20,969 bases of DNA, taken from a virus. The stretch lies in IMG/VR virus record IMGVR_UViG_3300025881_000101, positions 1 through 20,969 of that record; one strand, given 5' to 3'. Position numbers and translations under genes: made by a program. The number at the start of each line of letters is the position of its first letter. The first letter of the stretch is position 1. Shown here piece by piece: positions 1,845-20,100 of the stretch. Below the pieces are notes generated by a model that worked only from the letters and a program-made list of their open reading frames with translations, did no database searches and was not told where the DNA came from.

Positions 1845-4800
1845 ATGGCATCTAGAAAAAAAATATTATTTCCGCGCAGCGACATACCAGGACGTGCACC
1901 GACTCTTAACGAAATTGATTTCGGTGAGATTGCGATTAATACGCATGATGGTAAAGCATATATTAAGAAAGATAAGAACGGCGAAGTTAGTATCAATTCT
2001 ATTGGTGCCGAAGATGTAGACAACGTCTATTATGTTTCTAAGTCTGGTGTTCCTGGGAATGATGGCAAATCTTTGATGAATGCTTTCTCCTCTTTGGATT
2101 CGGCAGTAGCAGTTGTATATGCAAAAGAAAACTTCAAGTTTGACGAAACTACATGTGAACGAGACCTTAACCTTATTATGGATGGTGTTCGTTATGACAT
2201 GGCACTCGGTACGAACTACGGTGCGGTAACTGCTGGACAAGCATATAAGCGCGGTAATGCTATTAAAGTGACCGCAGAACAACTCTATCAGACTAGACGA
2301 TCAATTAATGAAGAACGTCTCGGTATGGTTTCTGTTCCCGCAGTAAAAACTGACGCGACTTCTAAACTACGTGTTGCTTCTGGTTTCGATGAGATCATTG
2401 AGATTCTTGTGGGCGGTACTGCTTCTGCATTAGATTTTCCTGATCCACCTGTCCAAGCACAGACTGACGCGAATGCAGCTGCTAATGCTATTCAGACTAA
2501 CAAAGAAGTAATTCAGGATGCGGTTCTAGATTACCTGAACAACCCCGCAAACGATTTCCTCACAGGGTCATACGATGCGACAACTTGTTCTCGGGATGTC
2601 GGTCTAATTGTAAATGCTGTTGCACGTGATCTATTATTAGGCACTGACTACAATACTATTACTGCTGGTTGGGCATACAATAGGTCTTCCTCTGCTTATG
2701 TGTTGAGCGATCAGAACGAAGCAACTATTGCGGGTATCAACTTTGCGAGAGATTACATTATTGCTCTTGCTGGTGTTACTTCCGATACTGACATCGAAAA
2801 CCTTTTCAAGAATGTTACCGATGTCATTAACGCAACGCAAACGGTTTACCCAACAATCAACTATGTGACTACGGCAGGGGCAACATACCAGACGGCAGAT
2901 CGAATTGCGGCAACCACGAACCTTCAAGCAAATCGTGCAACATTAATTTCTGATACCACGGTTTACATCAATGCCAACTATCCAGGTCTTGGTTACGATC
3001 AAGCAAAATGCGAAAGAGATGTTGGTTATATCATAGACGGTTTATCCCATGATGTCAAGTATGGTGGTAACACTGCGACTCGCACAAATGCTCTTGCCTA
3101 TTTCTCAGGTACTGTATCTCAATTAGGTTTCGGAGAAGGCACTGCAACTGTTGCGGCATACAATGATCTTAAAACACGGATCAACGCAGTGGTTACGACT
3201 GCTCCGGAACAAACAGTTCTTGGTGGACTTGTGGATGAAATCACCGGCGTTATCACGGCAGGTAATACCACGGGTCTTTCCGCAGAAGTAAATATCGTTA
3301 CTACTGGATTGACTACTACCGAATATGATGCTATCGTTGCAGGAATCGTAGGTGCTCAGGCTGCCACGATTGACTATGTTGATCTGAATTGGTCCACTAA
3401 ACTTGGTGGATATAATGCCGGTAAGTGTGCAAGAGACGTTGGATTAATCCTTGATGCTGTTGCACGTGATCTTTTACTTGGATCAGATTTTTGGACAATT
3501 GCGGCAGGTAATTCATACCTAAGAGCAAATACTGCTTATGTGTTGAGTGATCAGAAACAAGCAACTATTGATGCTGTTAATTTTGCCAAGTCGAAAGTTA
3601 AAGCATTAGTTGGCGCACTTGATGCAACGGTAGACACGTTGTTTGAACGTGTGATAGATGTTCTTGATGGAACCGTAACAATAGTTCAAACCTATGCTAC
3701 TTATCCCGCAAACGGAACGTATGCATCTTCACAGTTTAGAGATATAGACCACGGAACTATACGATCACAGAGAAATGGTTTGATCACAAGAACTACTAAC
3801 TTCATTACTGCTAACTATCCTGGACTGGCATATGATCAATCCAAGTGCGAAAGAGATACAGGATTCGTAATTGATGCAATAAATATTGATCTGTTGTATG
3901 GCGGTAACACCGCCTCTCGTAATGCTGCACTTTCATATTTTGCAGGAACAAATTCCCAGTTAGGTTCAGGAGAAACCGCACCTACAGTTGCGGCGTACAA
4001 TTTTCTTGCAGGAGATATTAAGAATTATACTTCTGAAAATGCAAGAGTTGATGAACTCATGGGTCTGGTCACTGGCGTTATAACTGCTGGTAATACTGAT
4101 AGTATTCCTGCGGAAGTAGAAGTGGATACTGCGGGGTTGACAACAACAGATTTTGATGCCATCGTTGCAAACAGATTGATCATTCAGAACGATGTCATCG
4201 ACTTTGTAAATGATCAAAACATTGTAGGCAGTTTCGATCAGCACAAGTGTGAGCGAGACACGGGTCTTATAATTGATGCGATTGCTCTTGACTTACAGAA
4301 CAATACAGACTATAATAGCATCACTGCTGGACTCGCATACCAAAGAGGTAATGCACAAAAAGTACAGAGTGATCAATTACAATACACAATCGATTCAATT
4401 AATTACTTGCGAGACCAGATCAACGCATCTGGTATTAACGCAACAAGTCAGACTTTCGTTACGGCACGTATCAAACAGATCACTGAACTCCTTGAAGAGT
4501 CCACCGCATACGGAAAAGAAGACGGAACCTCTATCGACTTTACCGGAACTGGAAGTGAGAGTGCCGATAAGAGAAATGCTGCCAACGCTCTGATCGTTAA
4601 TCGAAGAACCATTCAGGGTCAGTTGATCACTTGGATTCAAAACAATTTCGATTCGTTAGAATACGATCAAGACAAGTGTCAAAGAGACGTTGGATACATT
4701 GTAGATGCCGTGACTCACGATATTCTTTTCGACGGTTCTTTTGCTACTGATACCAATGCTCGTTCATACTGGGTCGGTAAAGATCTTAACATTGAGAACA

Positions 4801-7800
4801 CCACAACGGCATACGAAAGTTTAGATGGTCTCGCAGACATCTGGACTAATCAATTAGGTGCCGGTGAAATTACCGCCTCACTTGCTGCATACGAGCAGTT
4901 AAAAACTATTATTAATAATTATGTCACGACTTCTACGGAAGAAGCGCGGGTTGTTGCTTTAATTGAAAGGATTAGAGACGCAATCAATGCCGCAGATGGA
5001 TCAGCAATTCCGATTGTTGTGCCTACTTTCACTGGCGAGAGCAGTACTTTTCATGCTATCAGATCTACGTTACAAGAGCAAGTAGTATTTTATGCCAATA
5101 GCGTTTTCCCAACATACTCTTACGATCAGGCAACTTGTCGCAGAGACGTGGGATACATTCTGGATGCGTTGACCTATGATCTCAAGTACGGTGGTAACAG
5201 CGCAACCTCTATTGCGATGCGAGCATACTTCTCTATCTTTGGTAATGGTTATGCTGATCGACTTGGTCAAAGTGAACTGACTGCAACGATTGCAGCATAC
5301 GAACAGTTAAAATCTATTATTGCGGGTTATACGGCAGGAACAGATTCAGGTAACATTACTAAGATCCAAAACCTCTTAGATATTATTATTCATGCTGTTG
5401 AGCAATCTAGTATAGGAACTTTCCAATTAGGTGATTTCTTTAACGGAACTGCTATCTACCAATACAATTACCCGACAGGACTTGCAGTAGGTTACGATTC
5501 ACTAGTGTTCCCAAACCTTGTTACTATAGGGGTCTCTACGACAACACCATCAATCTATACCGCATGGACTAAGTTCGAGCAAGGAACATCTGAACGACAA
5601 ACTATTATTCGACAGTCATCTGAGACCGCGCAGAACCAAGGCACCGATACTACTATCTTTTTGAAGTCTGGTGACTACACAGTTAACAACCCAATCAAAC
5701 TTCCGCCCAAGACTTCTATCATCGGTGACGCACTAAGGGCAACTACGATTCGCCCACGCAACGTCGATAGTGATATCTTCTGGGTTGACAATGGTTGTTA
5801 TGTAAAAGAGGTTACTTTCCGAGATCATCAAAACGGTGCAGCCTGTGTGGCATTTGATCCAAGAAACGATGTTAATACTGGTCCGTTCATTACTCAATCG
5901 CCTTATGTACAGAACTGTACTTCGTTGACAACATCGGGTATCGGTATGAAGATCGACGGATCCAAAGTGTCTGGTCTACGATCAATGGTGCTTGATGCGT
6001 TCACACAGTTTAATGCAGACGGTATTGGTGTTCACTTAACCAATCGCGCATATGCTCAGTTAGTATCTTGTTTCACGATTTCTACCTCAACGTCTATTTT
6101 GGCAGAAACAGGGGCACAGTGTTCTATAACAAACTCGAACTCTTCTTTTGGTGATCGTGGTTTAGTATCAACAGGCGGTTCTCCGTCAATATACGATGGA
6201 CTTCTTCACGCAACATATAATCAGAACGATGATGTGATTCGAGTAAATGGAATTAGAAACCAAGACCCTGCAAACTATTCTTTAGAAATAGGTGCGTTTA
6301 AGAAACCAAATTACAACGATGCGATCAAATTTAGTAATGATAATTATTACTACACTGTTCTAAACGTATCGGATGAGATTACTCAAGATTGGGGAACCAG
6401 CGGAAATACCAACGAAAGTCTTCTAGTAAACCCCTCTCCTGTGGTTAACGAGCAGTTCGGTAGTGTTTCAAAAATGTCAAGAGACGATAATTATTTGTTT
6501 GTCGGGGCAAAAGGAACAGGCGCAGCAACCGGAGAAGTCGAAGTCTTTACACGGTCAGGAACATCTTGGACTACTCAGGCAACAGTTAAACCTACCGGAA
6601 CGACCGAAAACCCTTTGCATAATAATGCCGGAGACGGTCGTAGGTTTGGTTCTTCGGTTGCATGCAACCTTGATGGAAGTCTTCTGGCGGTTGGAGCACC
6701 TTTCGATCAGAACGGTGGTGGGTTGGGAGAAAATCAAGGTAGCGTTTATGTTTATAAACGAACCGGTTCTTCTTGGGCATTCGATATAATTTTGCAACGA
6801 CCTTTTGTTGCCTCAACCAATGTTTTACTTGCCCTAGAAACAAAACACTTATCTATGTCTGAAGACGGTAACTGGCTTGCAGTAGCAAGTAGCGTTACTT
6901 CGCCAAGCGATACTCGTGGTCAAGTTTTTGTTTACCAGAAAGGAACAGAAATATTAGATGGTTCCGGTGGCACTAAAGGTATAGAAGCATCGCTTACTTC
7001 CTCATCAGGGGATTATTGGACTTTGATGCAAATAATTACAAGTCCAGTCATTACCAATGTATCTGCGCCATCAGTTTCTCTTAATACAACAGACGGTTCG
7101 GACATGATTGTCGCTTGGGCAGGACAAGCAAATACTGCATACTATTATGCAAGAAACATCTTTAATTCGTATGGTCGAGTTCAGACAATTGTACCGGCAA
7201 TGAATCTTAACGAAAACAATCAGCGATCACCTGTGTTGGAACTTTCTTCCGCCGCTGATTACTTTGTTTATGGTGACGGAAATGCCCCGTTCGGTTATAT
7301 AATTAATCCGTTTACCGATTCTGATGCCGGTTCATTAAATGCGGCAAAACAATCTATTGCTTCGCTTACGACTTCTTCAAGCGCGCCTCATGTTACTGCA
7401 ACTGATCCTGATGTCGATTTTACCAAGTATTTTAGTGCTGGTATTACGGTGAAGAGTCCGGCATGGAATGCGGCAGGTAATAAAACGATTGCTTCATTGA
7501 CGGCAAACACCATAACCTTTACAAATGGAACTGCGGTTCCAAATGCCACTACAACCAATGCAGAGATTTCTACTAATGCGGCGGGAGCAGTCGAACTTTT
7601 CTTCTTTAATGAAGGTACTTGGGGAACGCAAGAAGTAATTACTCATGGTGATAAACAAGGGGTTTCTACTTCTAATGCTGACAATGGTCCAACGCCTAAT
7701 GATGCTCAGAGATTAGGCGATGAGGTTGTTATTAGTGCTGATGGTTTGCTTGCAATTGCTGGAGAAAAGAACGGGGATCGGAACGCAGCATGGGTTGTTG

Positions 7801-8405
7801 AACGCGCAGCTTCTAACTGGGCAACGGTCACTAAACTTCAACCATCTACCGTTCAAGCAGTTTCAGAAGGGGATGCTTCAAAAGATAATTTCTCTGCCAG
7901 TATTGCACTTGGATCTAAGGGAGATTATATTGCAGTAGGTGCTCCTAACAGAACTAAAGATATTGGTGCGACTCCAGCAGAAAACGGGGGAACGGTATTT
8001 AATTACTATTCTATCCTAAATGAAACCGGATCATACAACATCACTGTTGCTCCTGGACTAAATAAGCCATTAGTACAAGGTCAAACCGTTGATTTCCATC
8101 AAAGATCTTTGATTAGTGCCTCTTCACATACTTTTGAGTTTGTGGGATCTGGTACTAATATGTTTGCGGCAGTGCCACAAAACGGCGGTATTCCTAAGAA
8201 AGATCAGGAAGTAATATTCGATTCAGCAGGCGCGGCACAACCCAATTTTGGTTTGGTTTACTTTACCGCGACGGACGAACTGGGTGACTTTAGGATTGGT
8301 GGTGATTTAACCATCAACCGCGAGTCCGGAACAATCACAGGAACAACGTTCGACAGATCTTTGTTCGCAGTATTAACACCTTATATTCTAGCATTAGAGG
8401 GATAA
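1845..8405 (+). CDS. Giant tail fibre / adhesin with Cys repeats, beta-helix and FG-GAP propeller (2186 aa)
   Basis: A 2186-residue protein. Residues 1-45 (PTLNEIDFGEIAINTHDGKA) match the short attachment segment that starts many phage fibres. Residues about 98-1180 hold eight repeats of about 140 residues, each with one Cys in a C-x-R-D motif. Residues about 1230-1500 include TIFLKSGDYTVNNPIKLPPK, TSIIGDALRATTIRP and TSGIGMKIDG, typical of a right-handed beta-helix (pectin-lyase-like fold). Residues about 1535-2055 contain FG-GAP-type blades, for example FGSSVACNLDGSLLAVGAP at 1601 and GDYIAVGAPN near 2022, interrupted by a segment at about 1832-1915. Residues about 2060-2186 (SSHTFEFVGSGTN, DELGDFRIGGDLTIN, FDRSLFAVLTPYILALEG) resemble the C-terminal module shared by fibres of marine T4-like phages. 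It probably acts as an elongated host-binding structure. No catalytic residues can be assigned. It is followed 1 nt later by the 130-aa gene. Confidence 0.9.
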   Translation: MASRKKILFPRSDIPGRAPTLNEIDFGEIAINTHDGKAYIKKDKNGEVSINSIGAEDVDNVYYVSKSGVPGNDGKSLMNAFSSLDSAVAVVYAKENFKFDETTCERDLNLIMDGVRYDMALGTNYGAVTAGQAYKRGNAIKVTAEQLYQTRRSINEERLGMVSVPAVKTDATSKLRVASGFDEIIEILVGGTASALDFPDPPVQAQTDANAAANAIQTNKEVIQDAVLDYLNNPANDFLTGSYDATTCSRDVGLIVNAVARDLLLGTDYNTITAGWAYNRSSSAYVLSDQNEATIAGINFARDYIIALAGVTSDTDIENLFKNVTDVINATQTVYPTINYVTTAGATYQTADRIAATTNLQANRATLISDTTVYINANYPGLGYDQAKCERDVGYIIDGLSHDVKYGGNTATRTNALAYFSGTVSQLGFGEGTATVAAYNDLKTRINAVVTTAPEQTVLGGLVDEITGVITAGNTTGLSAEVNIVTTGLTTTEYDAIVAGIVGAQAATIDYVDLNWSTKLGGYNAGKCARDVGLILDAVARDLLLGSDFWTIAAGNSYLRANTAYVLSDQKQATIDAVNFAKSKVKALVGALDATVDTLFERVIDVLDGTVTIVQTYATYPANGTYASSQFRDIDHGTIRSQRNGLITRTTNFITANYPGLAYDQSKCERDTGFVIDAINIDLLYGGNTASRNAALSYFAGTNSQLGSGETAPTVAAYNFLAGDIKNYTSENARVDELMGLVTGVITAGNTDSIPAEVEVDTAGLTTTDFDAIVANRLIIQNDVIDFVNDQNIVGSFDQHKCERDTGLIIDAIALDLQNNTDYNSITAGLAYQRGNAQKVQSDQLQYTIDSINYLRDQINASGINATSQTFVTARIKQITELLEESTAYGKEDGTSIDFTGTGSESADKRNAANALIVNRRTIQGQLITWIQNNFDSLEYDQDKCQRDVGYIVDAVTHDILFDGSFATDTNARSYWVGKDLNIENTTTAYESLDGLADIWTNQLGAGEITASLAAYEQLKTIINNYVTTSTEEARVVALIERIRDAINAADGSAIPIVVPTFTGESSTFHAIRSTLQEQVVFYANSVFPTYSYDQATCRRDVGYILDALTYDLKYGGNSATSIAMRAYFSIFGNGYADRLGQSELTATIAAYEQLKSIIAGYTAGTDSGNITKIQNLLDIIIHAVEQSSIGTFQLGDFFNGTAIYQYNYPTGLAVGYDSLVFPNLVTIGVSTTTPSIYTAWTKFEQGTSERQTIIRQSSETAQNQGTDTTIFLKSGDYTVNNPIKLPPKTSIIGDALRATTIRPRNVDSDIFWVDNGCYVKEVTFRDHQNGAACVAFDPRNDVNTGPFITQSPYVQNCTSLTTSGIGMKIDGSKVSGLRSMVLDAFTQFNADGIGVHLTNRAYAQLVSCFTISTSTSILAETGAQCSITNSNSSFGDRGLVSTGGSPSIYDGLLHATYNQNDDVIRVNGIRNQDPANYSLEIGAFKKPNYNDAIKFSNDNYYYTVLNVSDEITQDWGTSGNTNESLLVNPSPVVNEQFGSVSKMSRDDNYLFVGAKGTGAATGEVEVFTRSGTSWTTQATVKPTGTTENPLHNNAGDGRRFGSSVACNLDGSLLAVGAPFDQNGGGLGENQGSVYVYKRTGSSWAFDIILQRPFVASTNVLLALETKHLSMSEDGNWLAVASSVTSPSDTRGQVFVYQKGTEILDGSGGTKGIEASLTSSSGDYWTLMQIITSPVITNVSAPSVSLNTTDGSDMIVAWAGQANTAYYYARNIFNSYGRVQTIVPAMNLNENNQRSPVLELSSAADYFVYGDGNAPFGYIINPFTDSDAGSLNAAKQSIASLTTSSSAPHVTATDPDVDFTKYFSAGITVKSPAWNAAGNKTIASLTANTITFTNGTAVPNATTTNAEISTNAAGAVELFFFNEGTWGTQEVITHGDKQGVSTSNADNGPTPNDAQRLGDEVVISADGLLAIAGEKNGDRNAAWVVERAASNWATVTKLQPSTVQAVSEGDASKDNFSASIALGSKGDYIAVGAPNRTKDIGATPAENGGTVFNYYSILNETGSYNITVAPGLNKPLVQGQTVDFHQRSLISASSHTFEFVGSGTNMFAAVPQNGGIPKKDQEVIFDSAGAAQPNFGLVYFTATDELGDFRIGGDLTINRESGTITGTTFDRSLFAVLTPYILALEG
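2139..5330 (+). repeat. Eight-copy protein repeat, about 140 codons, with invariant C-x-R-D
   Basis: The motif Cys occurs at residues 104, 248, 389, 528, 668, 802, 945 and 1098 of the 2186-aa fibre, so the spacing is 144, 141, 139, 140, 134, 143 and 153 residues. Each copy reads approximately (Y/F)D-x3-C-x-RD-x2-(F/Y/L)I-x-(D/N)A. Two types can be told apart. Type A (104, 248, 528, 802) continues with (T/S)(D/N)(Y/F)-x2-(I/V)-x-AG-x-(A/S)Y. Type B (389, 668, 1098, and 945 as a diverged form) continues with YGGN-(T/S)A and a (Y)(F/W) pair about 13 residues later. I saw no other cysteine in the first 1200 residues. Boundaries are approximate. Confidence 0.85.
8396..8401 (+). promoter_or_regulatory. 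Ribosome binding site of the 130-aa structural gene
   Basis: AGAGGG lies 5 nt before the ATG at 8407, inside the last codons of the giant fibre gene. It supports the chosen start, which follows the fibre stop after only one base. Confidence 0.6.
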
Positions 8406-8406
8406 G

Positions 8407-8799
8407 ATGGCAACTCCATTAAACGTATTTAAGACAACAACAAAAACATTATCAGATTCAGATGAAAACTTTGGTGTGTTAGGCACCGAACCTTTCGTAT
8501 ACAGAGCACCAGCGGGAGTAACTAGTATTGTTCTGATGGCGCAAGTTGCTAACATTGATCCTACAGATAGAACTGTAGGAGTTACCTTTATTCATAAAGA
8601 CGTTGGTACTCAGATCGAAACTAAATTGGTGAACAATTTTGCAGTACAATCCAATGATGCTTCTGGAGTTTTGACCGGCAAATTGATTGTTCAGGAAAAC
8701 AACGAAATACTCGCATACACACATCGCTTCAACGGAACCGACGATACTAATAATAGTTTGGTTCTAACTTTAAGTTATCTGGAATCGTTAAATGGCTAA
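8407..8799 (+). CDS. Small conserved virion structural protein (130 aa)
   Basis: A 130-residue protein without catalytic motifs, signal peptide or membrane segment. It has a short N-terminal arm (ATPLNVFKTTTKTL), then APAGVTSIVLMAQVANIDP, VGVTFIHKDVG, KLVNNFAVQSNDASGVLTGK, LIVQENNEILAYTH and a final LTLSYLESLNG. This strand series, with 'A..VANI', 'F..(V/I).(S/A)NDA...LTGKL(I/V)(V/L)(Q/E)' and 'L(V/T)LSYLE(S/T)LN' landmarks, is one I associate with small structural proteins of marine T4-like phages. It is probably a single beta-sandwich. It lies between two giant fibre genes and overlaps the second by 8 nt, so the two are probably translated together. It could be a fibre-joining or capping subunit, but this is inference from position only. 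Confidence 0.8.
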   Translation: MATPLNVFKTTTKTLSDSDENFGVLGTEPFVYRAPAGVTSIVLMAQVANIDPTDRTVGVTFIHKDVGTQIETKLVNNFAVQSNDASGVLTGKLIVQENNEILAYTHRFNGTDDTNNSLVLTLSYLESLNG

Positions 8800-11700
8800 G
8801 AGACTCATATCGTTATCAGGTAAAGTAAAACGTTTATCGGCAGAAGAGTTAGACGCTGATCGTTATCAATACCTATCGCTTGAGCAAGCGGAACCGAACC
8901 CTGGTAATCCAGCATCCGATGGATCGTTGTTTATTTCGGATGTTGATGGGACTCGTGGATTTACAACAAAACCTTCTCTTACTGGAGTAACGTTTAGAAA
9001 TAACACGCTGGGTGAAACTTCTTCCAATAGTGGTGAAATTTTTGTAGCAACATATCACAGTAATCCTGGTGATGCATTATCAGTACAAGACGATTCGGTT
9101 GGTTTCCTAGAATTAGGAACGTTATCTTTAGTAGATGCTACAGATTTAGGGTTGCAAGAAATAACGCAGGTTGGTAACACAACCAACCAAGGTATAGAAG
9201 TAACAGGTGTTTCGAATGACGGTCACGGCAATCCATTAACTCACGGCGTTACTATAACTTCGCCCAATTCTTTATCTGCTTCTGGGAAAGTCGATCTCAC
9301 TGGACCATTGACATCAACCGATACCCGACTTAAACTTAATACAGCAAATCTTATATCATCCAATATTCTGACAACGGATATCACTACAGATAGTGTGGGT
9401 TACAGAGAAGCATTATTTGCGTTTGTCGCGCCGACTCTTGATCAAGTTACAGAACAAAGTATTGCTTCTGGCGTAGTACCAATTTCTACTCCTGCTACTG
9501 GAGCAATCACAGAAGACGGTATTCGAGCAAAGTTTTTTGGTTTTGGAATAGCGCCTCCTGGAAGATCAAGTGTTGACGCAAGAACCGCACTAGTTTATAC
9601 TGGTATCGGAGATTCTGTTGGGCAACGCACTTTAACAGATTTAGCAGTACAGAATACCACGACAGACACCATTACAGTCGATAAAATACAAGTTTCAGAT
9701 CCCAGTATATTTACATTACCAGCATCTGGTACAATTCCATTAGTGGTTTATGAAGAATCTACAGATGAATATGAAATAGTACAAATTGATGTAGAAAACC
9801 TTGACGCCAATTTCGAAACTTTAAAATCTGTAACTGCAAGAAAAGCGCCAACATTAGATTCTGGTGAAACTGACCAACTAACTACATTAAGTAATGGTCT
9901 TCGTTTAAGAGGAACTGGTGTTGATCAGGCGCTGTATCCTAATAACACTGAGCGTTGGGTACTTGTCGCTGACATAGCGGATGTTGGTCCTCAAGACAGC
10001 GCGTATGTTAACATACGACAAACAGATCCAATAGCATTTAATCAGTCTATCGCGACTCTTGATTTTGTTTTAGGCAACGATCCTGTTGCTAGTTCTAAAG
10101 AACTAACTGTTAGAAGCGTTATTGCGGATAGTGCTGCTCTAAGCAAGTTCGATGTTAATGGCAATACAACATTAGACGCAACCACTATTGATGGTTTATT
10201 AACTGTTAATGCTGCTACTTCTCTCGACTCAACTACTATTGATGCTGGCGTTGCTAATAATGGATTCGTTATCACCAATCTAGCGGTAGGAACTGAGTCT
10301 GATATTCTTGCGGTCAACAGTAGCGGCGTTGTATCGACTGTAGATTTAGACCAAGAACTTTCTGATGCAGTTAATAGTGTAAGTTTGCACGATGTAGTAG
10401 TTGTTAATACTTCTTCAGGAAGAACAACTTCAGGCGAAATCGGCGCGGCAGATTTTAGAATATACGACGGATCTGGATTCGTTGATGATGATGACATAAC
10501 TACAAATTTCAATGTGGTAATTGATACTGACAGAGATTTCCATGTTCAAGATAAAATTTTCTTTAACGACCTTGATGGATCCGGTGTTGATCGACTTCCC
10601 ACAGATACGGATAGAAACTTCATCAGGTTCTCTGATCCGACATTACTAGGATATCCTGGAGTATATGATTTTGTTTCAGATGCGCTGGACGACCCCTCTA
10701 CTGTTGGAAACGCACTTCTTCGAGCGGGTGGTTTAATATTAACCGACAGTGCGACGATAGGAAGTAATTTAACCATTACAGGAAACCTTACTGTAAACGG
10801 CACGGAAACTGTTGTTAATACAACAAATTTGTCAGTAACAGATAAGAAAATTGTAATTGCCGACAACGCTGGTAACATTGCTCAAACAGCAGATGCTGGA
10901 ATTTATTTGGGCGCAGATGACGGAACTGAATATGCTTCTTTTACCTTTGACGGTGCAACATCTTGGACTACACCCGAAAGTTTTACGATACAAGATACTG
11001 GTATTTTAATTGCTGAAGGTCTTACTTTACTCGATTCAACGGCAATAGACGGAGCACTTAATCTTACAAACCTTATCGGCGACGGTGATGCTGTAACTGT
11101 ACTTACCATTGATGCTGTGAATGAGGTGGGTTCTAGGGCAATACAATCAACAGCATTTACTGGCGAAACATTAACTACAGTAACCGATCCTGGAAGACCT
11201 GCGGGTTATGATACAACTCCAACTCCACTGTATTTTAATGGTGGTATATCTCTCGCAGCAAACGTAACGGACACACAAGCAACATATAAACTGTTGAATC
11301 TCGGATCAGGTGCTTCTGGCGATAGTGTTGAATTCATTGAAGTCGATGCTAATATTCTTGATGGTAGTGCTTTAGGTTTAGATCAAGTATTAACAAACAG
11401 CAATACCTCAGGTAGAAACATTCTACTTACTGGCACCGGCGGTGTTTCAGCTGATTCTGGTGATTTTTCTGGTAAGTTAAACGTCGACGGTGATATTACT
11501 ACTGCTGCAACAACATTCAACTTACTTAATACAACTGCTACAACAGTAAACGTTTTTGGCGATGCTACAGGAATCGGTATTGGTGCTGTTACTGGTACCA
11601 CGACGATCAGGCATAACCTTGACGTTGATTTAGATTTAAATGTAGACGGCGGTGATATTACTACTGCCGCAACAACATTCAACTTGCTCAATACAAATGC

Positions 11701-14029
11701 CACGACGGTAAATGCATTCGGCGCTGCTACATCAATTGATATCGGTGCCGCTACTGGGACAACATCAATTAATAATAACCTTGATATTGATTTGGGGTTA
11801 AATGTCGCCGGTATTACTACGCTTGATTCAACTACGATAGATGCTGGCGTAGGCAACGGATTAGTAATATCCAATTTGCAATCAGGCAACGGTAGTTTTG
11901 CTGTTGTTGATGGGTCCGGTAATGTTGGTCTTAAGTCAGTAACAGAAGCATTTGCAGACGAAAACTTACAAACAGTTACCCAGCGTGGACAAACATCTGT
12001 CGCACAAACAACAAACGTTTCAGTAACCACTGAAAATGTTAAAGTCGGTGGCCAGTTTTTCTTAGGGTTGACCGATGGAAATGTTAATGATCTTCGCTTA
12101 ACGGGAACACAAAAAGCACTCCATATAGATGCTAATGATAGCGTTGGATTCAGAGACCTTGGCAACTTAGCATACTTAGATTCAGATGACGAAACTTTTG
12201 CTTCTTTAACTAGCAAACCCGAAGGTTTCGGCGGGTTGACGCAACTACAGAATAATACGGTTGTTCCTAGGATTGAACTTCAAGGCGGATTGAACCTTAA
12301 AAACCTTAGCACAAGTCCTGACGATAATCTTGTTGCTTTGTTTTTACATCAAGATTCGGTTGTTAAAGTAACTGTAGACGAAACCGTATTCAGAAAACCT
12401 TCTCTTCAAGAAGTAACTGAATTTGGTGGCGATTCTACAAACATAAAAACTAAATTCGGCGGTAGTTTAAACCTTCCCGCACCTGGAACAGAATTAATTT
12501 CAGGATCATCGATTACTTCTGCTTTAGCGGGCGATGCTAATTTTTATCAGATGCTGATAATAGATACCGCCACCAGAGACGTTAGTCGCGGCAACATAGC
12601 AACGATTGTTCAAACAGTTTCAACGGAAACATTAGAAACAGTTACATCTAGAGGCGCTTTGCTAAATGACGCTGCAGGAAAAGGAGCAAGAGACTCTGCT
12701 ACTGTACAGGTTGATTTTGGTGCGAAAGTGTTTTATAGCGGTGTTGATAATGTAGAATCAACATCATCTATTGTATTAGTGTTGGATGGTGATGATGGCA
12801 TCGCTAAACGGGATATGTCTACGTTATTTGACGGAGTTACGTTACATGAAGTCACTACTGCTGGTCCTTTAACTAGCAATGGAATCGGGATCGGTTCTTT
12901 AAGTGTTTACACTTCTACAGGATTCGTTGATCCTGGGGTTCCGGGAGAGTTTACAGAAGTAATCGATGCTGATCGTAATGCGTTTTTTGTTGACCTCGAT
13001 GTTACTGGTATCACCACACTTGACTCAACTGCAATAGATGCTGGTGTTAGTGGGAATGGATTGTCCATACCGAACCTTGGAGAAGTCACTACTAACACTG
13101 ATATACTGACTATCAATGGCGATGTTGTAAGCAAGACTGCTTTCAGCGACATATATACGGTGCCACCTACTCCTACTCTGCAATCAGTAACAGATGCTGG
13201 TAATATTACTGATAACTTCATACGAATTAGATCGACTACTTCTGGCGGAAATGTTTATTTAGAAGTGCTCGACTCGGGTACAAACCCAGACTTAGGATAT
13301 CATTTGGTTGCAGGGGCAACAAGTTTCCAGCAATTCGAAACAAATGAAGCAGGAAGTTCAATACTCAACGCAAGTACTGTTATTGAAGCAGAAGATTCTG
13401 ATAAAACTACTATGGCAATTATCAGACACGGAGACACTGTAGGTGGTCCTTCTCTGATTCTTGCGAAAAACAGAGGCACTAATAAATCGAATAAGAGTGC
13501 GGTCTCAGACAATGATAACCTTGGTAGGATTATTTTTGGTGGCGCATCGAATACTACGTCAACCGAAGAAGCAGACCCTTACACGCCATCGTTTGAAATA
13601 TCAGCAGATGTTTCGGCACCTGTGGCATACGATGACCTAGCATCCACAATGAGATGGTTTAGTCATGATGGTGGCACTAAAACTCAAGTGATGTCGTTAG
13701 ACAACAATGGTGAACTTTCAATTGCTCAGAGCGCGGTCATTGGATCAAGTATTTTTATAGGCAATTCACAAGCAACCAATGTTCCTGCTGCTTTTTTTGG
13801 TACAACCAACGACCCAAATCAAGGGTATGTTGCTGTTACTCATAATCCTGCTGGAGGAGGCACTTCATCGATGAGTCTTGCTGTTTCGAACACTGGTTCT
13901 GGGATCGAAAGAGTCGAAATCTCTCCAACTAAAATGCAATTGAAATCTAGTGTTCAACTACAAGATGCCGCAGGAACGAATCTAGTTATTTACGATTCTG
14001 CTGGTGTGGTTCTTTGGGGGAACGTATAA
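8792..14029 (+). CDS. Long tail fibre protein with LxxVT and LDSTTID repeats (1745 aa)
   Basis: A 1745-residue protein. The N-terminus (DADRYQYLSLEQAEPNPGNP, SDGSLFISDVDGTRGFTT) looks like the baseplate-proximal end of fibres in marine T4-like phages. The shaft has eleven LxxVT-type repeats, five LDSTTID-type motifs, a module with GNLTVNGTETVVNTTNLSVT and KKIVIADNAG (about 655-730, shared with the 408-aa fibre), and a 54-residue tandem duplication near residues 900-1007. The C-terminal about 240 residues contain NDNLGRIIFGGAS, TPSFEISADVSAP, ASTMRWFSHDGG and MSLDNNGELSI, the 'G.I.F.G...RM....T.G' domain that often precedes the fibre tip. No intramolecular chaperone (S74 endosialidase type) is visible. 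It starts within the end of the previous gene (8-nt overlap). The probable role is a trimeric fibre for host contact. It is too diverged for a T4 gene name. Confidence 0.9.
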   Translation: MAKRLISLSGKVKRLSAEELDADRYQYLSLEQAEPNPGNPASDGSLFISDVDGTRGFTTKPSLTGVTFRNNTLGETSSNSGEIFVATYHSNPGDALSVQDDSVGFLELGTLSLVDATDLGLQEITQVGNTTNQGIEVTGVSNDGHGNPLTHGVTITSPNSLSASGKVDLTGPLTSTDTRLKLNTANLISSNILTTDITTDSVGYREALFAFVAPTLDQVTEQSIASGVVPISTPATGAITEDGIRAKFFGFGIAPPGRSSVDARTALVYTGIGDSVGQRTLTDLAVQNTTTDTITVDKIQVSDPSIFTLPASGTIPLVVYEESTDEYEIVQIDVENLDANFETLKSVTARKAPTLDSGETDQLTTLSNGLRLRGTGVDQALYPNNTERWVLVADIADVGPQDSAYVNIRQTDPIAFNQSIATLDFVLGNDPVASSKELTVRSVIADSAALSKFDVNGNTTLDATTIDGLLTVNAATSLDSTTIDAGVANNGFVITNLAVGTESDILAVNSSGVVSTVDLDQELSDAVNSVSLHDVVVVNTSSGRTTSGEIGAADFRIYDGSGFVDDDDITTNFNVVIDTDRDFHVQDKIFFNDLDGSGVDRLPTDTDRNFIRFSDPTLLGYPGVYDFVSDALDDPSTVGNALLRAGGLILTDSATIGSNLTITGNLTVNGTETVVNTTNLSVTDKKIVIADNAGNIAQTADAGIYLGADDGTEYASFTFDGATSWTTPESFTIQDTGILIAEGLTLLDSTAIDGALNLTNLIGDGDAVTVLTIDAVNEVGSRAIQSTAFTGETLTTVTDPGRPAGYDTTPTPLYFNGGISLAANVTDTQATYKLLNLGSGASGDSVEFIEVDANILDGSALGLDQVLTNSNTSGRNILLTGTGGVSADSGDFSGKLNVDGDITTAATTFNLLNTTATTVNVFGDATGIGIGAVTGTTTIRHNLDVDLDLNVDGGDITTAATTFNLLNTNATTVNAFGAATSIDIGAATGTTSINNNLDIDLGLNVAGITTLDSTTIDAGVGNGLVISNLQSGNGSFAVVDGSGNVGLKSVTEAFADENLQTVTQRGQTSVAQTTNVSVTTENVKVGGQFFLGLTDGNVNDLRLTGTQKALHIDANDSVGFRDLGNLAYLDSDDETFASLTSKPEGFGGLTQLQNNTVVPRIELQGGLNLKNLSTSPDDNLVALFLHQDSVVKVTVDETVFRKPSLQEVTEFGGDSTNIKTKFGGSLNLPAPGTELISGSSITSALAGDANFYQMLIIDTATRDVSRGNIATIVQTVSTETLETVTSRGALLNDAAGKGARDSATVQVDFGAKVFYSGVDNVESTSSIVLVLDGDDGIAKRDMSTLFDGVTLHEVTTAGPLTSNGIGIGSLSVYTSTGFVDPGVPGEFTEVIDADRNAFFVDLDVTGITTLDSTAIDAGVSGNGLSIPNLGEVTTNTDILTINGDVVSKTAFSDIYTVPPTPTLQSVTDAGNITDNFIRIRSTTSGGNVYLEVLDSGTNPDLGYHLVAGATSFQQFETNEAGSSILNASTVIEAEDSDKTTMAIIRHGDTVGGPSLILAKNRGTNKSNKSAVSDNDNLGRIIFGGASNTTSTEEADPYTPSFEISADVSAPVAYDDLASTMRWFSHDGGTKTQVMSLDNNGELSIAQSAVIGSSIFIGNSQATNVPAAFFGTTNDPNQGYVAVTHNPAGGGTSSMSLAVSNTGSGIERVEISPTKMQLKSSVQLQDAAGTNLVIYDSAGVVLWGNV
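9152..13240 (+). repeat. Eleven-copy LxxVT repeat array in the 1745-aa fibre
   Basis: The repeat has the form L-x-x-(V/I)-(T/L/V)-x-x-G/N followed by a short strand such as TTNQGIEVTG or TSNGIGIGSL. The first Leu of each copy is at residues 121, 216, 344, 532, 794, 863, 1059, 1205, 1281, 1351 and 1463. The clearest copies are LQEITQVGNTTNQGIEVTG, LQTVTQRGQTSVAQTTNVSV, LQEVTEFGGDSTNIKTKFGG, LHEVTTAGPLTSNGIGIGSL and LQSVTDAGNITDNFIRI. The copies at 344, 532 and 863 are weaker. Spacing is irregular (69 to 262 residues), so other modules separate the copies. Confidence 0.7.
11489..11812 (+). repeat. 162-bp tandem duplication in the 1745-aa fibre gene
   Basis: Copy 1 is at 11489-11650 and copy 2 at 11651-11812, adjacent and in frame (54 codons). 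Both encode GDITTAATTFNLLNT followed by ATTVN-x-FG-x-AT and IG-x-x-TGTT, ending in a DLxLNV strand. The first 40 or so bases differ mainly at synonymous positions, so the duplication is not brand new or is under protein-level selection. Confidence 0.85.
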
Positions 14030-14254: not shown

Positions 14255-15013
14255 ATGGCTTCTCCAAATTCTAGACAGACATTAATCAACTATTGCCTTC
14301 GAAGGTTAGGCGAACCTGTAGTTGAAATTAATGTCGACGAAGATCAGATTGAAGATAAGGTTGACGATGCTATTCAAATGTATCGTGAGTTTCATTCCGA
14401 TGCAACATACCGCACATATTTAAAACATCAAATTACATCCGATGATGTGACCAATGGGTACATACCGATATCATCAGATATTCTATACGTGTCTCATTTG
14501 TTCCCCATAAACAAAACCTTTGGGGCAAGCGGCATGTTTAACATCAAATATCAAATGATGCTAAACAGTATGAGCGATTTTATGAATTTCTCTGGCGGTA
14601 TGTCGTACTATTATCAAATGTCTCAGTACCTAGACTTTGTGGATATGATTTTATCGGGCACTCCCCAAACCACTTTTTCTAGAAGGCAAGATCGTCTTTA
14701 TATTTGGGGCGAATGGGCGTCGGGGATTAACAACATAGAAGTTGGTGATTACTTATTCGCTGAAGTCTATCAGGTTATAGATCCTAATTCACACACAAGC
14801 GTTTATAATGATATGTTTCTTAAAAACTATACTACCTCTTTGATAAAACAACAATGGGGTTTGAACATGTCGAAATTCGAAGGGATGCAACTTCCCGGAG
14901 GAGTCACTGTTAACGGAAGGCAAATTTATGATGATGCTACTCAAGAATTACAAACACTTGAAGAAAAATTAAGACTTGAGCAAGAGTTACCACCCGACTT
15001 TTTTGTAGGTTAA
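14255..15013 (+). CDS. 13: Neck protein gp13 (head completion / tail attachment)
   Basis: A 252-residue homologue of T4 gp13, which with gp14 forms the neck that closes the filled head and accepts the tail. The N-terminus RQTLINYCLRRLGEPVVEIN followed by VDEDQIEDKVDDAIQMYREF matches the T4 arrangement 'L...ILRRLGAP.I.VE...DQI.D.I..AL..Y.E.H'. The C-terminus has MQLPGGVTVNGRQIYDDAT and ends PPDFFVG, like T4 MLPGGVTIDGQRL and its final PPFGILVG. At 252 residues it is shorter than the 309 of T4; the missing length lies in the middle. The middle shows YYYQMSQYLDFVDMILSGTP, also aligned with T4 'Y.TQL..YM.MMQDML.P.P'. It is followed after 1 nt by gp14, as in T4. Identification is from remembered T4 sequence and gene order. 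Confidence 0.95.
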   Translation: MASPNSRQTLINYCLRRLGEPVVEINVDEDQIEDKVDDAIQMYREFHSDATYRTYLKHQITSDDVTNGYIPISSDILYVSHLFPINKTFGASGMFNIKYQMMLNSMSDFMNFSGGMSYYYQMSQYLDFVDMILSGTPQTTFSRRQDRLYIWGEWASGINNIEVGDYLFAEVYQVIDPNSHTSVYNDMFLKNYTTSLIKQQWGLNMSKFEGMQLPGGVTVNGRQIYDDATQELQTLEEKLRLEQELPPDFFVG

Positions 15014-15014
15014 T

Positions 15015-15941
15015 ATGACTACTAATAAATATTTTTCACAAGGTGCTCGATCTGAGCAACTCTTGTATGAAGATTTAATAATCGAATCTTTAAAAATGTA
15101 TGGGCAAGACGTTTATTATATGCCCAGGGAATTAATAAACATTGATGACATTTTTAAAGACGAATCAACCTCTAGGTTCGACAATGCATATAAGATTGAA
15201 ATGTATATCGAGAACGTTGAAGGTTTCGATGGTGAAGGTGATCTGTTTGCTAAATTCGGCGTAGAAATAAGAGACGCTGCGACTTTTATTGTTGCTAGAA
15301 AAAGATTCCTAAGTCAGATCGGTCAATATGAAAACGATCCAGACGACCCCAAGAAACAATACTTTAGACCACACGAAGGAGACTTAATTTTCTTACCTCT
15401 TTCCGGTTCTATTTTTGAGATTCAAAAAGTGTTTGACGAAAACCCCTTTTATCAATTGAGGAACCTTCCTGTATTTAGACTCTCGTGTGAACTCTTTGAG
15501 TATAGTGGTGAAGATTTCGACACTGATATTGGTGCTATAGATAATGTAGAGATATTCGATTACCAATATAAATTGACTTTTAATAATGTTGAAAATACTT
15601 TGGGCAGTTTCAATGAACAGGGTTCATTTCAGGTTGGTGAGCAAGTTTCTCAACTTGCTTCTAGCGGATGGACATTAACGGCAGATGTTACTGATTATAA
15701 TGCAGCAGATAGCGATTCAAGGATATTAAGTGTGGCGCATTTAACTTCTACTGACGGACTGTTTCACTCTTTCAACACAGTGGATACGGTTATCGGATCT
15801 ATAACAGGTGCCGCCGGAGTTCCTTTGTCAATTACTGACGCAGTCGATGGTGCTAATAGTTCTGCACAGAACGATGTTTTTGAAACTGAATCTGACAGTC
15901 TGTTGGACTTTTCAGAATCTAATCCGTTCGGAGATCCATAA
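15015..15941 (+). CDS. 14: Neck protein gp14
   Basis: A 308-residue homologue of T4 gp14 (256 residues), the partner of gp13 in the head-tail neck. EQLLYEDLIIESLKMYGQDV and YYMPRELINIDDIF align with T4 '[32 protein letters not shown]'. FKDESTSRFDNAYKIEMYI and EGDLIFLPLSGSIFEIQKV continue the match, with NPFYQL following. After about residue 175 the chain is longer than T4 and ends DSLLDFSESNPFGDP, a tail style I associate with gp14 of marine T4-like phages. The region at about 205-275 (GSFQVGEQVSQLASSGWTLT and following) is Gly/Ser/Thr-rich and accounts for much of the extra length. The start follows the gp13 stop by 1 nt; the ribosome site is weak (TAGG at 15006-15009). The stop overlaps the gp15 start in TAATG. 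Confidence 0.95.
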   Translation: MTTNKYFSQGARSEQLLYEDLIIESLKMYGQDVYYMPRELINIDDIFKDESTSRFDNAYKIEMYIENVEGFDGEGDLFAKFGVEIRDAATFIVARKRFLSQIGQYENDPDDPKKQYFRPHEGDLIFLPLSGSIFEIQKVFDENPFYQLRNLPVFRLSCELFEYSGEDFDTDIGAIDNVEIFDYQYKLTFNNVENTLGSFNEQGSFQVGEQVSQLASSGWTLTADVTDYNAADSDSRILSVAHLTSTDGLFHSFNTVDTVIGSITGAAGVPLSITDAVDGANSSAQNDVFETESDSLLDFSESNPFGDP

Positions 15942-17191
15942 TGTTAGGCGAATGGTTTTATAACGAAAGAATAAGAAAATCAGTTGCTGTTTTTGGTTCT
16001 TTATTTAATAACATATTTGTTATCCGAAACGACAGCGCTGGTAACGTTATTAGTCAAACCAAAGTTCCTTTATCGTACGCGCCACAAAGAGATTTTCTTG
16101 CCAGAATGGTTGCGACTGAGTCCGGAGAAAATCAAGAGCGACAAATAGCAATTAAATTGCCAAGAATGTCGTTTGAAATACTTGCGATGAATTATGACCC
16201 GACGCGGCAGTTACCAAAATTGAATAAAAGAACTGTTCCTAATATCACAGGAGCAGAAAACGCTAAACTATTATATACTCCAGTTCCTTTCAACATAGCA
16301 TTTCAGCTTAACGTATATGCCAGAAGTCAAGATGACGCATTACAAATTGTTGAACAAATATTACCGTTTTTTACGCCGCAATATACCGTCTCAGTAAAAC
16401 CTCTTGATGGGTTTGATCTTGTCGAAGACACTCCAATAAAATTAGACGGCATGACAATGCAAGATGATTATGAAGGAGCGGTAGAGAATAGAAGAACAAT
16501 TATATATACTTTAGATTTTGAAATGAAAATTAACTTGTATAGGAAAACTAATCCTTCTTCTTCTATGATAACGTCAGCACAGAGCAGTTTGTTTGATATG
16601 AACGGGGATTTATTAAGTTTCATACAATGCGATGCAAACGTCTCCTCAGGGACCACTGGGACGGGCACAGAGGACATAGGAACAGTCACTAATACTTTAG
16701 TACTGAAAAATACGCTGAATCCAATCGTGTCATACAGCGTCACAACTCAACCATCTTATGGATCTGCTACAGTAGATGCGTCAGGAAAATGGGTTTATAC
16801 GCCGAATTCTGATTTTTTCGGGAGCGATCCTTTTGTTATTGGCGTTGACGTTGGACAGAATGTTATTGAATCAGTTACTATTACACCGACGATTATTTCA
16901 GCAGATGGTGATGCAGTAGATGATGTGTTCAACTGGGTCAATGATGGAACGTCTTTAGTTATGGATGTTTCTGCTAACGACACCTTTGAGACCACTGGAA
17001 ATATTACACACGCTGTGGAAACGCAGCCGATCGCGGGTATTGTTACTATCATAGATTCTCTTGCTGGAACATTTCGATGGACACCTCCGGACGCGTCGTT
17101 CACTGGATCCGTCACGTGGGAATATCGTGCCATACCAACCGAAGCGGCACAATCATCGGAGGTTGCTGAAGTCACTATAAACGTGACCTAA
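15941..17191 (+). CDS. 15: Tail completion / sheath terminator protein gp15 with C-terminal Ig-like extension
   Basis: Residues 1 to about 204 are gp15. LGEWFYNERIRKSVAVFGSL and FNNIFVIRN align with T4 'FGYFYNSSFRRYATLMGDLFSNIQIKR', VPLSYAPQRDFLARM with 'VPITYASKEHFMMKL', and DALQIVEQILPFFTPQ with 'MFQIVEQILPYFQPH'. In T4, gp15 (272 residues) forms the hexameric ring that caps tail tube and sheath and binds the neck. This copy has 416 residues. After a Thr/Gly linker (SSGTTGTGTEDIGTV) come two domains: about 250-320 (VTTQPSYGSATVDASGKWVY, then TPNSDFFGSDPF) and about 321-416 (AVDDVFNWVNDGTSLVMDV, SANDTF). Both look like cadherin/Big_9-type beta-sandwiches. CGGAG at 15929-15933 is 7 nt before ATG, and the start overlaps the gp14 stop. 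The gp15 call is sure; the domain type of the extension is inferred. Confidence 0.95.
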   Translation: MLGEWFYNERIRKSVAVFGSLFNNIFVIRNDSAGNVISQTKVPLSYAPQRDFLARMVATESGENQERQIAIKLPRMSFEILAMNYDPTRQLPKLNKRTVPNITGAENAKLLYTPVPFNIAFQLNVYARSQDDALQIVEQILPFFTPQYTVSVKPLDGFDLVEDTPIKLDGMTMQDDYEGAVENRRTIIYTLDFEMKINLYRKTNPSSSMITSAQSSLFDMNGDLLSFIQCDANVSSGTTGTGTEDIGTVTNTLVLKNTLNPIVSYSVTTQPSYGSATVDASGKWVYTPNSDFFGSDPFVIGVDVGQNVIESVTITPTIISADGDAVDDVFNWVNDGTSLVMDVSANDTFETTGNITHAVETQPIAGIVTIIDSLAGTFRWTPPDASFTGSVTWEYRAIPTEAAQSSEVAEVTINVT

Positions 17192-17199: not shown

Positions 17200-20100
17200 A
17201 TGCATAACGGATTTAAAGACAGATATAGAAGAAAAATAATCTTGGGTAGACCTCAGGTAAAGAATGTTTTACCCGATCACTTTAAATCTGCATACCCAAA
17301 ATTTATTTCATTGCTTGAAAAATACTATGATTTTCTTGATGAAAACGATAGTACCGAATTGCTTCAGCACCTTTTTCAGATCCGAGATGTCACGGAAACC
17401 GATATAACTCTGTTATCTTATATTGAAGACGAGTTATTATTAGGCGAACAATATTTTGAAGGGTTTGTCGACAAAAGGGCAGCAGCAAATTTCTCTAGTA
17501 TTTTATTCAGATCAAAGGGTTCACGGTATTCGATTGAATGGTTTTTCCGTTCTTTTTTTGGTATCGATTCCGAAGTTTTTTATCCAAAAACTGACATCTT
17601 TAAACTTAATGAAGATGATTCTAGGATTGGTGCGGACTATGAAAAATATTTAACAGACAACAAACTTTATCAAACTTTCTCATTGTTAGTGAGAGCATCA
17701 ATTCCTATTTCACAATGGAAAGATATTTTTAAGTTGTTTGTTCACCCCGCAGGTATGTACCTTGGCGGGGAAGTGTTAGTTGAAAGTTTAGCAAGGATCA
17801 CCAGAGAAGTATCAATAGAACCGACTCAATATCTTACTCCGGTCTGGTCTTTTACATCGGGATCTACTGATGAAGGTTCTACTCATACTCTTTTGATATC
17901 ATCTAACCCCTCACCCCCTAGTGATACGCATCTGTTTTATAGAATCACTTTGTCGGGTTTATCAAATGAGGCTGAGATAATAGATACAACACCTAATTTA
18001 GATGTGGTCAATTACATACCTGTCGAAATCATTGGTGGTTCTGCTCAACTACAGTGGGCGCTTAGTGATGACAATGATTACGCCGAAGGCGATGAAATAT
18101 TCACTGTAACATTTTATGATCATGAAGACCCTGTTTGGGCGAATGAACTAGGAAGTTCTACAATTACAATCGGAAACATATTACCTGTATACACTGTTAC
18201 CGTTTCTAATTCATCAATAACTGAAGGCGTTCAAACTATAACAGGAACTATGACCACTTCTCATCCAAACGGTTTTTCTCCTGCGTTTGCAGGCGAGACC
18301 GTAACATTGTCGTTTACAGGAGACCTTGCATCAGATATACGAGTTTCTAATTTAATATGGGACGATGGAGGACTTTCTACTGTTGTTCTAAACACTGTTT
18401 CTAAATCATTTACATTCGATGTTGTTGGTAGTGATATTTATCAAGGAGCAACAACGGGGGCGGTTAGAGCAACAAGTGCATATGCTGTAGGCGATTCACC
18501 AACCATAACAATTACAGATTTAGCGGCGACTGGAGCAGTCAATGCTTCTAGCGCGACACAAAGTGAAGGAGGAGGTGCAATTACTTTTGATCCTACATTC
18601 ACTAATGCTGTTCCTGGATCAAATGTATATTATTGGTTAAGTAATCTGACTGATATGACCTCTGGAGATTTTTCAGGATCCCCAGCAATAGGATCTGGAA
18701 ATAGAGTTGTTATAGGTACAGTTGATTCTAATGGTACTGGTATGACAGGTGGGTATTCCTCACCGAGTATTGAGTTAACCGATGACATTGTTCCCGAATC
18801 GGGAGAATCATACAGAATCAATATTAATGTCGACAATTCTGGAACCGCTTTAGCAAATTCAACTATCACTGTCAACGACAACGATACTGTACCCGATTTT
18901 GATACTGTTACATTGTTCTCTGATGCAGGAAGAACTTTGGCTGCCACCTCCTTTAACGAGGGCGACACTATTTACGGTAGACTGGTTACTTCAGGAACAC
19001 CTCAAGGCGAGACCATCACCTACTCTTTCATCAATGGTGATACTCGAACAACTGACACGGATACCAGTGTTCATGCTACATCAGGAAACCAAGACTTTAC
19101 CCTCGTACTTGGTTCGGATATTCCCACAATTAACGGATCTCCTGCTGGATTAATAGTTCGGTGCTCAAGTTCAGGAACATATGCTAACAATTTAGATACT
19201 GGCACAATAACCATTGTTGATGAAACCATATCTTATACGGCATCTGCAGTCTCTTCATCGGTCACTGAAGGTAGTTTATTGCAAGTAGAATACACTGCAA
19301 CACTTGTCGGTGGCGCAAGTTATGAAAATCTTAACGTGGCGGTTGCCGACAACGGAGACTCAAGGGTAACTGCTGGTAATTATGCAATCACTTCCACTCA
19401 GTTCGGTCTTGCAGATCCTGGTGCCACTGGCGTTAGTACTGTAACATTGTCTATTGGTTCAACGGCAGATCCAGCAATAAACGGAGACGGGACTATTGAA
19501 TTTGTGGGAACAGGAGCAGTCTACGGGCAGGGTTCTGTCCCTGCTCAAGTGGATATCACAGTTACTGATGCTACACCCTCTTATGGTGCATTTAGTGTTT
19601 CACCCACATCCATAGATGAAGATGGAACAGTGGCAGAGTTCGAATTACTTGCCTCCAATGTTGGAGTCGGCGTAACTGTTGATTGGATATCAAATGCTAC
19701 CGGTGGTGTTGAATATGTTGGACCGGATCTACAAATTTCATACACCAGCGCTGTTGCAGGATTTGCTGACTTGACTCAAAATTTCGGAACAATCACTCGG
19801 GCAGGGGATGGTAACTTTAGATTCTGGGTTCGGGCAATTGCCGATCTTGCAGTAGACAATGAGAATCCTGAAGACTTTATAGTAACTATTGCGGCTAACG
19901 ATTCGAATGCTACCGCAACAGGTGGACCGAGTGCCACACTTGAAGTTAACGACACAAGTATTCCTGCAAATGCTCCGACTGTTACGCCCAATACTACGTC
20001 ACCCACAGAAGGTGATACCGTTACCTTTACTTTCGGTGAAGCAGCAGGATCTGCCGCGCAAACATATTACTTCAATATCACTCATGACACAACGAGTAAT

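Follow-up and report, generated by a model that had tools for sequence, protein, structure and literature searches.

Phycobiliproteins (Pfam PF00502), such as phycocyanin, allophycocyanin and phycoerythrin, carry a C-x-R-D motif at the start of helix E, and we take Arg86 and Asp87 of this motif to hold the ligand in the bilin site. In these proteins, the conserved site for the bilin is Cys84 (PMC2327270). The CXRD motif is carried by many phycobiliproteins and by the bilin-binding globins BBAG-1 and BBAG-3, which occur in heterotrophs as well and need no lyase to bind bilins (PMC10151467). T-type lyases such as CpeT act on Cys153, not on Cys84 (PMC10452541). Among viruses, cyanophages have phycobilin genes even when they infect Prochlorococcus hosts that lack phycobilisomes (PMC3037559, PMC2984593), and several marine cyanomyoviruses adsorb in a light-dependent manner (PMC2984593).

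Here we analyzed a viral record of 20,969 bases (the window) from an aquatic bacteriophage, which encodes a giant tail fibre with eight C-x-R-D repeats. Like phycobiliproteins, these units run from helix A through helix H in their predicted fold and have C-x-R-D where helix E begins; unlike them, they are arranged in tandem within a virion fibre and have Asp in place of Arg93. Since helices X and Y and Arg93 are absent and the chromophore is putative, we do not class them as light-harvesting phycobiliproteins. Compared by description and not by sequence, they resemble BBAG-1/-3 in being C-x-R-D globins beyond light harvesting, heterotrophs included; unlike the phage units, however, BBAG-1/-3 are cellular proteins found in bilin gene clusters, with a link to heme oxygenase and bilin reductase genes. 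The phage units have the BBAG motif, and bilin genes occur in some phages with units and in some without. Tail fibre and baseplate proteins of cyanomyoviruses (S-PM2, S-RSM4, S-H9-1, P-HM2 gp7, and S-ShM2) carry the same units, although these differ in number from those of the window fibre and are often further apart.

Results

The fibre is encoded by an ORF at 1845..8405 (+) of 2186 residues that matches PHROG tail fibre profiles as well as Pfam PF00502 and FG-GAP_2. An N-terminal region is followed by the eight phycobiliprotein-fold units, by pectate-lyase-like and FG-GAP segments, and by a C-terminal region; the pectate-lyase-like match is weak and falls under its cut-off. Neck and tail genes of the T4-like type (gp13, gp14, and gp15) lie at 14255..17191 (+), and these PHROG and Pfam matches place the window contig in a T4-like myovirus. 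With its PHROG profiles and its gp13-gp15 neighbours in the structural module, the fibre has the marks of a T4-like tail fibre. By gp15, phage C48C1 and several Synechococcus phages come closest to the window, and Methylophilales phages are also among the best 15.

Other genes of the window have features of their own. The tail sheath stabiliser gp15 (15941-17191) has bacterial Ig-like (Big_9) domains C-terminal to its gp15 region, and the adjacent stretch at 17200-20969 begins with a baseplate-wedge N-terminus and continues in frame for ~1000 residues that look repetitive and extend past the contig end. A protein of 1745 residues at 8792-14029 contains no Cys at all, and LTTLDSTTIDG-like repeats are common to this protein and to that of 591-1817.

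All eight Cys in the first 1240 residues of the fibre (residues 104, 248, 389, 528, 668, 802, 945, and 1098) lie in C-x-R-D, and a ninth appears only at residue 1318. Their spacings are 144, 141, 139, 140, 134, 143, and 153 residues. The sequence-only reading, which described eight units of ~140 residues with one C-x-R-D Cys each and no other Cys in the first 1200 residues, was therefore accurate on both points (8/8, spacing 134-153). By pairwise identity, which is 30-56% within types versus 19-32% between types, units 1, 2, 4, and 6 form type A and units 3, 5, 7, and 8 form type B, which bears out the order A-A-B-A-B-A-B-B that it had also given.

We placed the unit boundaries at Cys-38 to Cys+83 by alignment to the structural model of unit 3. 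On the + strand, this gives unit 1 at 2040..2405 (C-x-R-D codons 2154-2165), unit 2 at 2472..2837 (2586-2597), unit 3 at 2895..3260 (3009-3020), unit 4 at 3312..3677 (3426-3437), unit 5 at 3732..4097 (3846-3857), unit 6 at 4134..4499 (4248-4259), unit 7, which has an insertion of ~20 residues, at 4563..4979 (4677-4688), and unit 8 at 5022..5387 (5136-5147).

The same A/B order, with eight units and eight Cys, is found in two related contigs, L007 and L008, which are 97% and 77% identical, respectively, over the stretch compared. As a general rule, A/B alternation was rejected, with 232 type changes along fibres versus 246 in shuffles. Since the L009 fibre has 18 units, with the types in blocks, and an ORF in L130 has 22, the number of units ranges widely. 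The even spacing noted earlier likewise stands for the window fibre but not for the family, where spacings run from ~100 to several hundred residues.

AlphaFold2 predicted unit 3, modeled with 137 unit sequences, as a six-helix domain with a pLDDT of 91.8 and a pTM of 0.87. When this model was compared with the PDB by Foldseek, the best 50 matches were all phycobiliproteins (TM 0.64-0.78), although the best E was only 0.003. VIA-align likewise gave only phycobiliproteins, smURFP included, among its best 50 (Z 15.4-16.7; rmsd 1.8-2.3 Å over 122-124 residues), the best match having a Z of 16.7 and an rmsd of 2.1 Å over 122 residues. By this method, mostly helical models that lack clear relatives can have a best Z of ~14, with rank 50 at ~6 and at most 13; rank 50 for unit 3 has a Z of 15.4, above that range. 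Sequence identity in the structural matches is 14-23%. The solved bilin-binding protein smURFP (PDB 6fzn, 7uqa) has a similar trimmed length and matches the phage model with a Z of 15.5, as well as in Foldseek, but it differs from the phage units in being an engineered protein from an allophycocyanin subunit.

The predicted model contains the globin-like helices A, B, E, F, G, and H, while helices X and Y are apparently missing, as the alignment of the model to phycobiliproteins starts near their residue 30. In a two-unit model of types B and A (pLDDT 89.9, pTM 0.60), in which unit 4 is the second domain, both domains are well folded; the linker, which is the segment preceding helix A of unit 4, is weaker, and the neighbouring domains have no confident mutual arrangement. 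Its Foldseek matches are mostly phycobiliproteins, with E no better than 0.05. Models in BFVD of tail proteins from S-WAM2, S-CAM1, S-H9-1, and S-PM2 contain the same fold. Together, these predictions make it very likely that each unit is a separate globular helical domain with the globin-like phycobiliprotein fold.

We also found a link to phycobiliproteins in the amino acid sequence. PF00502 matched the whole fibre with 26.3 bits, above its cut-off of 22.2, over residues 346-455 in the region of unit 3; unit 3 alone scored 18.9 bits against the same cut-off. When single units were searched against Pfam, Phycobilisome was matched by 24/138 (E<=1) and the runner-up family by 3. A PF00502 profile search of the window's own record gave no candidate, even though the translated fibre passes. 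With phmmer, the only match below E 1 of the first 1238 residues to any PDB chain was the phycocyanin CpcA (E 0.096), aligned at unit 4 with C-x-R-D on C-x-R-D. A profile of 138 units matched mostly phycocyanin alpha chains in the PDB (best E 0.0019), again with the motifs superimposed, and hhalign aligned the unit profile with CpcA/CpcB at a score of 41.4 and a probability of 90.7, whereas none of 200 column-permuted controls scored above 23.0. In these alignments, the phage motif falls on the bilin triad Cys84/Arg86/Asp87. At C+9, on the other hand, Arg93 is invariant in CpcA and CpcB, and 81-83% of the phage units have Asp. Since the local hhalign alignment covers only 26 columns around helix E and the unit profile gave a single marginal candidate (E 0.07) in 24 whole cyanobacterial genomes, the link is real at the sequence level but short, and weak outside helix E.

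In total, 802 units were gathered from 143 phage ORFs, with the motif beyond chance (Cys 95%, Arg 94%, Asp 97%). At loci that had not been fetched by a Cys-containing DNA pattern, 64/65 units have C-x-R-D, and Cys is kept in 92% of the units that fail to match this retrieval pattern; free replacement of the Cys in homologues, which would have spoken against a role for it, is thus not what we found. The only annotations of the unit-bearing cyanomyovirus proteins are tail fibre, short tail fibre, structural protein, and baseplate protein, and the papers found leave the domain unnamed, in keeping with the earlier statement that such repeats occur, unnamed, in marine phage fibres.

To describe how the triad is lost, we used 654 non-redundant units. 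The 614 that keep Cys include 11 without Arg and none without Asp; of the 40 units without Cys, which derive from 26 ORFs, 32 lack Arg and 23 lack Asp. Arg and Asp are kept without Cys in 8/654 units, and a bulky Tyr, Phe, or Trp takes the place of Cys in 29/40. The fold-core residues Asp +14 and Tyr/Phe +30 are retained in 88% and 79% of Cys-less units, respectively, while Gln/Glu +42 and Thr/Ser +46 are retained less well. The p-values for co-loss are 1e-29 and below, which overstate independence because Cys-less units are generally more divergent and kin were thinned only at 80% identity; the same co-loss was reproduced in the units outside the retrieval pattern. Since C, R, and D are lost jointly while the fold core mostly stays, we read the triad as a ligand site that is lost whole.

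To identify which phages carry the units, we searched 50,697 phage records with units 3-5 by tblastn. By name, 157 of the 158 matching records are cyanophages (126 Synechococcus phage, 23 cyanophage, and 8 Prochlorococcus phage), among them P-HM2 and the light-dependent adsorber S-PM2, and one is a marine single-cell virus. Units are carried by 17/20 complete cyanomyovirus genomes, a figure that is not a prevalence because several of the 20 were chosen for having units; the three without are P-SSM2, S-SM2, and S-SSM7. Units were also absent from the genomes of pelagiphage HTVC008M, T4, KVP40, and podovirus P-SSP7. The isolates suggested that units are exclusive to cyanophages, and metagenomic contigs ruled this out: in a gp23 tree, 17/19 unit-bearing contigs fall in a deep clade to which cyanophages, T4, and HTVC008M do not belong, and the remaining 2 adjoin cyanophages. 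The deep clade presumably resembles the far-T4 phages, and its hosts are perhaps heterotrophic. Its units conserve the triad equally (96% of 122 units). Since 49 metagenomic contigs (3.9 Mb) in which neither psbA nor CpeT was found bear units, the picture from isolates is partly isolation bias. One very large phage contig of the deep clade (L125; 363,943 bases) carries units as well.

A positive link between units and bilin reductase genes was rejected, as these genes occur in 5/17 cyanophage genomes with units versus 2/3 without. CpeT is present in 13/17 unit-bearing cyanophage genomes versus 0/3 without units, in a sample that is small and confounded by clade. The S-type lyase CpeS was absent from the 26 records searched. 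In P-SSM2 (L006), a heme oxygenase gene at 4836-5537 lies one small HNH endonuclease gene upstream of a tail fibre gene at 6001-7854; the window fibre is related to this one at its ends, yet P-SSM2 lacks units.

Discussion

The explanation that we favour, at roughly an even chance, is that the fibre repeats form an array of phycobiliprotein-fold domains, each probably with one bilin. It builds on what was computed: the repeats and their predicted fold, where the motif lies, and a triad that is conserved and lost jointly. Identifying the ligand as a bilin, by analogy with phycobiliproteins and BBAGs, is itself a finely balanced judgement. The repeats would be tandem small globin-like domains without the N-terminal X/Y helices, and each C-x-R-D would be a ligand site equivalent to the phycobiliprotein bilin site, where Cys would attach a linear tetrapyrrole and Asp and Arg would hold its nitrogens and propionates. 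Each chain could carry up to eight bilins, covalently or tightly bound, which may come from the host or be made by phage bilin genes. Loading could occur by autocatalysis or by a lyase, and would most likely be lyase-free, as in BBAGs. On the fibre, such bilins might, speculatively, serve light-dependent conformation or adsorption, quenching, or stabilisation of the domain. Against the putative array we counted the cyanobacterial search with its one candidate, the deep clade separate from cyanophages, the 49 unit-bearing contigs with neither psbA nor CpeT, bilin reductases that do not track the units, the action of CpeT on Cys153, the Asp at Arg93, the confinement of the sequence link mainly to ~26 residues of helix E, and the modest Foldseek E of the two-unit model.

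It is possible, though we think it somewhat unlikely, that the fold is kept as a mere building brick with no ligand, and that C-x-R-D is conserved as a cap or packing element of helix E or as an aid to folding. The presence of units in phages whose hosts are perhaps heterotrophic would fit this, as would the units with Arg and Asp but no Cys and the aromatic residues that replace Cys as though filling space. However, since units without the triad seem to retain the fold core, C-R-D appears dispensable for folding, and a free Cys kept at 92-100% together with Arg and Asp would be unusual for packing alone. The joint loss of the three residues, along with the weaker retention at +42 and +46 in Cys-less units, would also fit a site for another small ligand (a tetrapyrrole other than a bilin, a metabolite of the host, or part of a receptor) or a Cys that acts as a reactive nucleophile at adsorption, and the identical site recurs in phages beyond the cyanophage clade. 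Nevertheless, both fold and motif agree closely with those of bilin proteins, and we know of no ligand besides bilins in C-x-R-D globins, which makes such an alternative doubtful.

Convergence of a generic helical bundle on a phycobiliprotein-like shape is very improbable. Overall identity and the genome-scale profile matches are indeed weak, but Z reaches 16.7 with near-full coverage, only phycobiliproteins are among the best 50, and the same motif stands at the same place in helix E. We find still less reason to retain the proposal of the sequence-only reading that the thiols lie in rings along a trimeric shaft, where metal binding or disulfides would stiffen the fibre. The single Cys per unit and the regular spacing in the window fibre had favoured it, and the conservation of the Cys confirms that this residue matters. 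On the other hand, the units are predicted to be separate globular domains joined by a lower-confidence linker, spacing varies across the family, and neither a disulfide nor a metal ring accounts for the co-conserved Arg +2 and Asp +3; the Cys coincides instead with the bilin-attachment position, Cys84.

P-HM2 reportedly fails to adsorb in the dark, and adsorption of P-SSP7 is not light-dependent (PMC7112961). P-HM2 bears units and P-SSP7 does not, a contrast that we treat as a functional lead and not as evidence, because this myovirus and this podovirus differ in almost everything. It is a long shot, in our view, that the virion is a photoreceptor in which fibre bilins switch the shape or exposure of the fibre with light and so make adsorption light-dependent in P-HM2 and some other cyanomyoviruses. 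If this were true, the phage bilin genes (pebS, pcyA, ho1, and cpeT), whose function has been described as mysterious, would be used directly in the particle.

We found no description of phycobiliprotein-fold domains in a virion in the open-licence literature. Altogether, our findings suggest, short of proof, that these viruses wear pigments on their fibres. If the units bind bilins, phage particles would be pigmented, and both the reason for cyanophage phycobilin genes and the light-only adsorption of some cyanomyoviruses (PMC7112961) would become testable. Even if the units are ligand-free, the reuse of a pigment-protein fold as a fibre brick in two deep T4-like branches would be unexpected, and the predicted phycobiliprotein fold gives a name to widespread, unannotated repeats in phage fibres.
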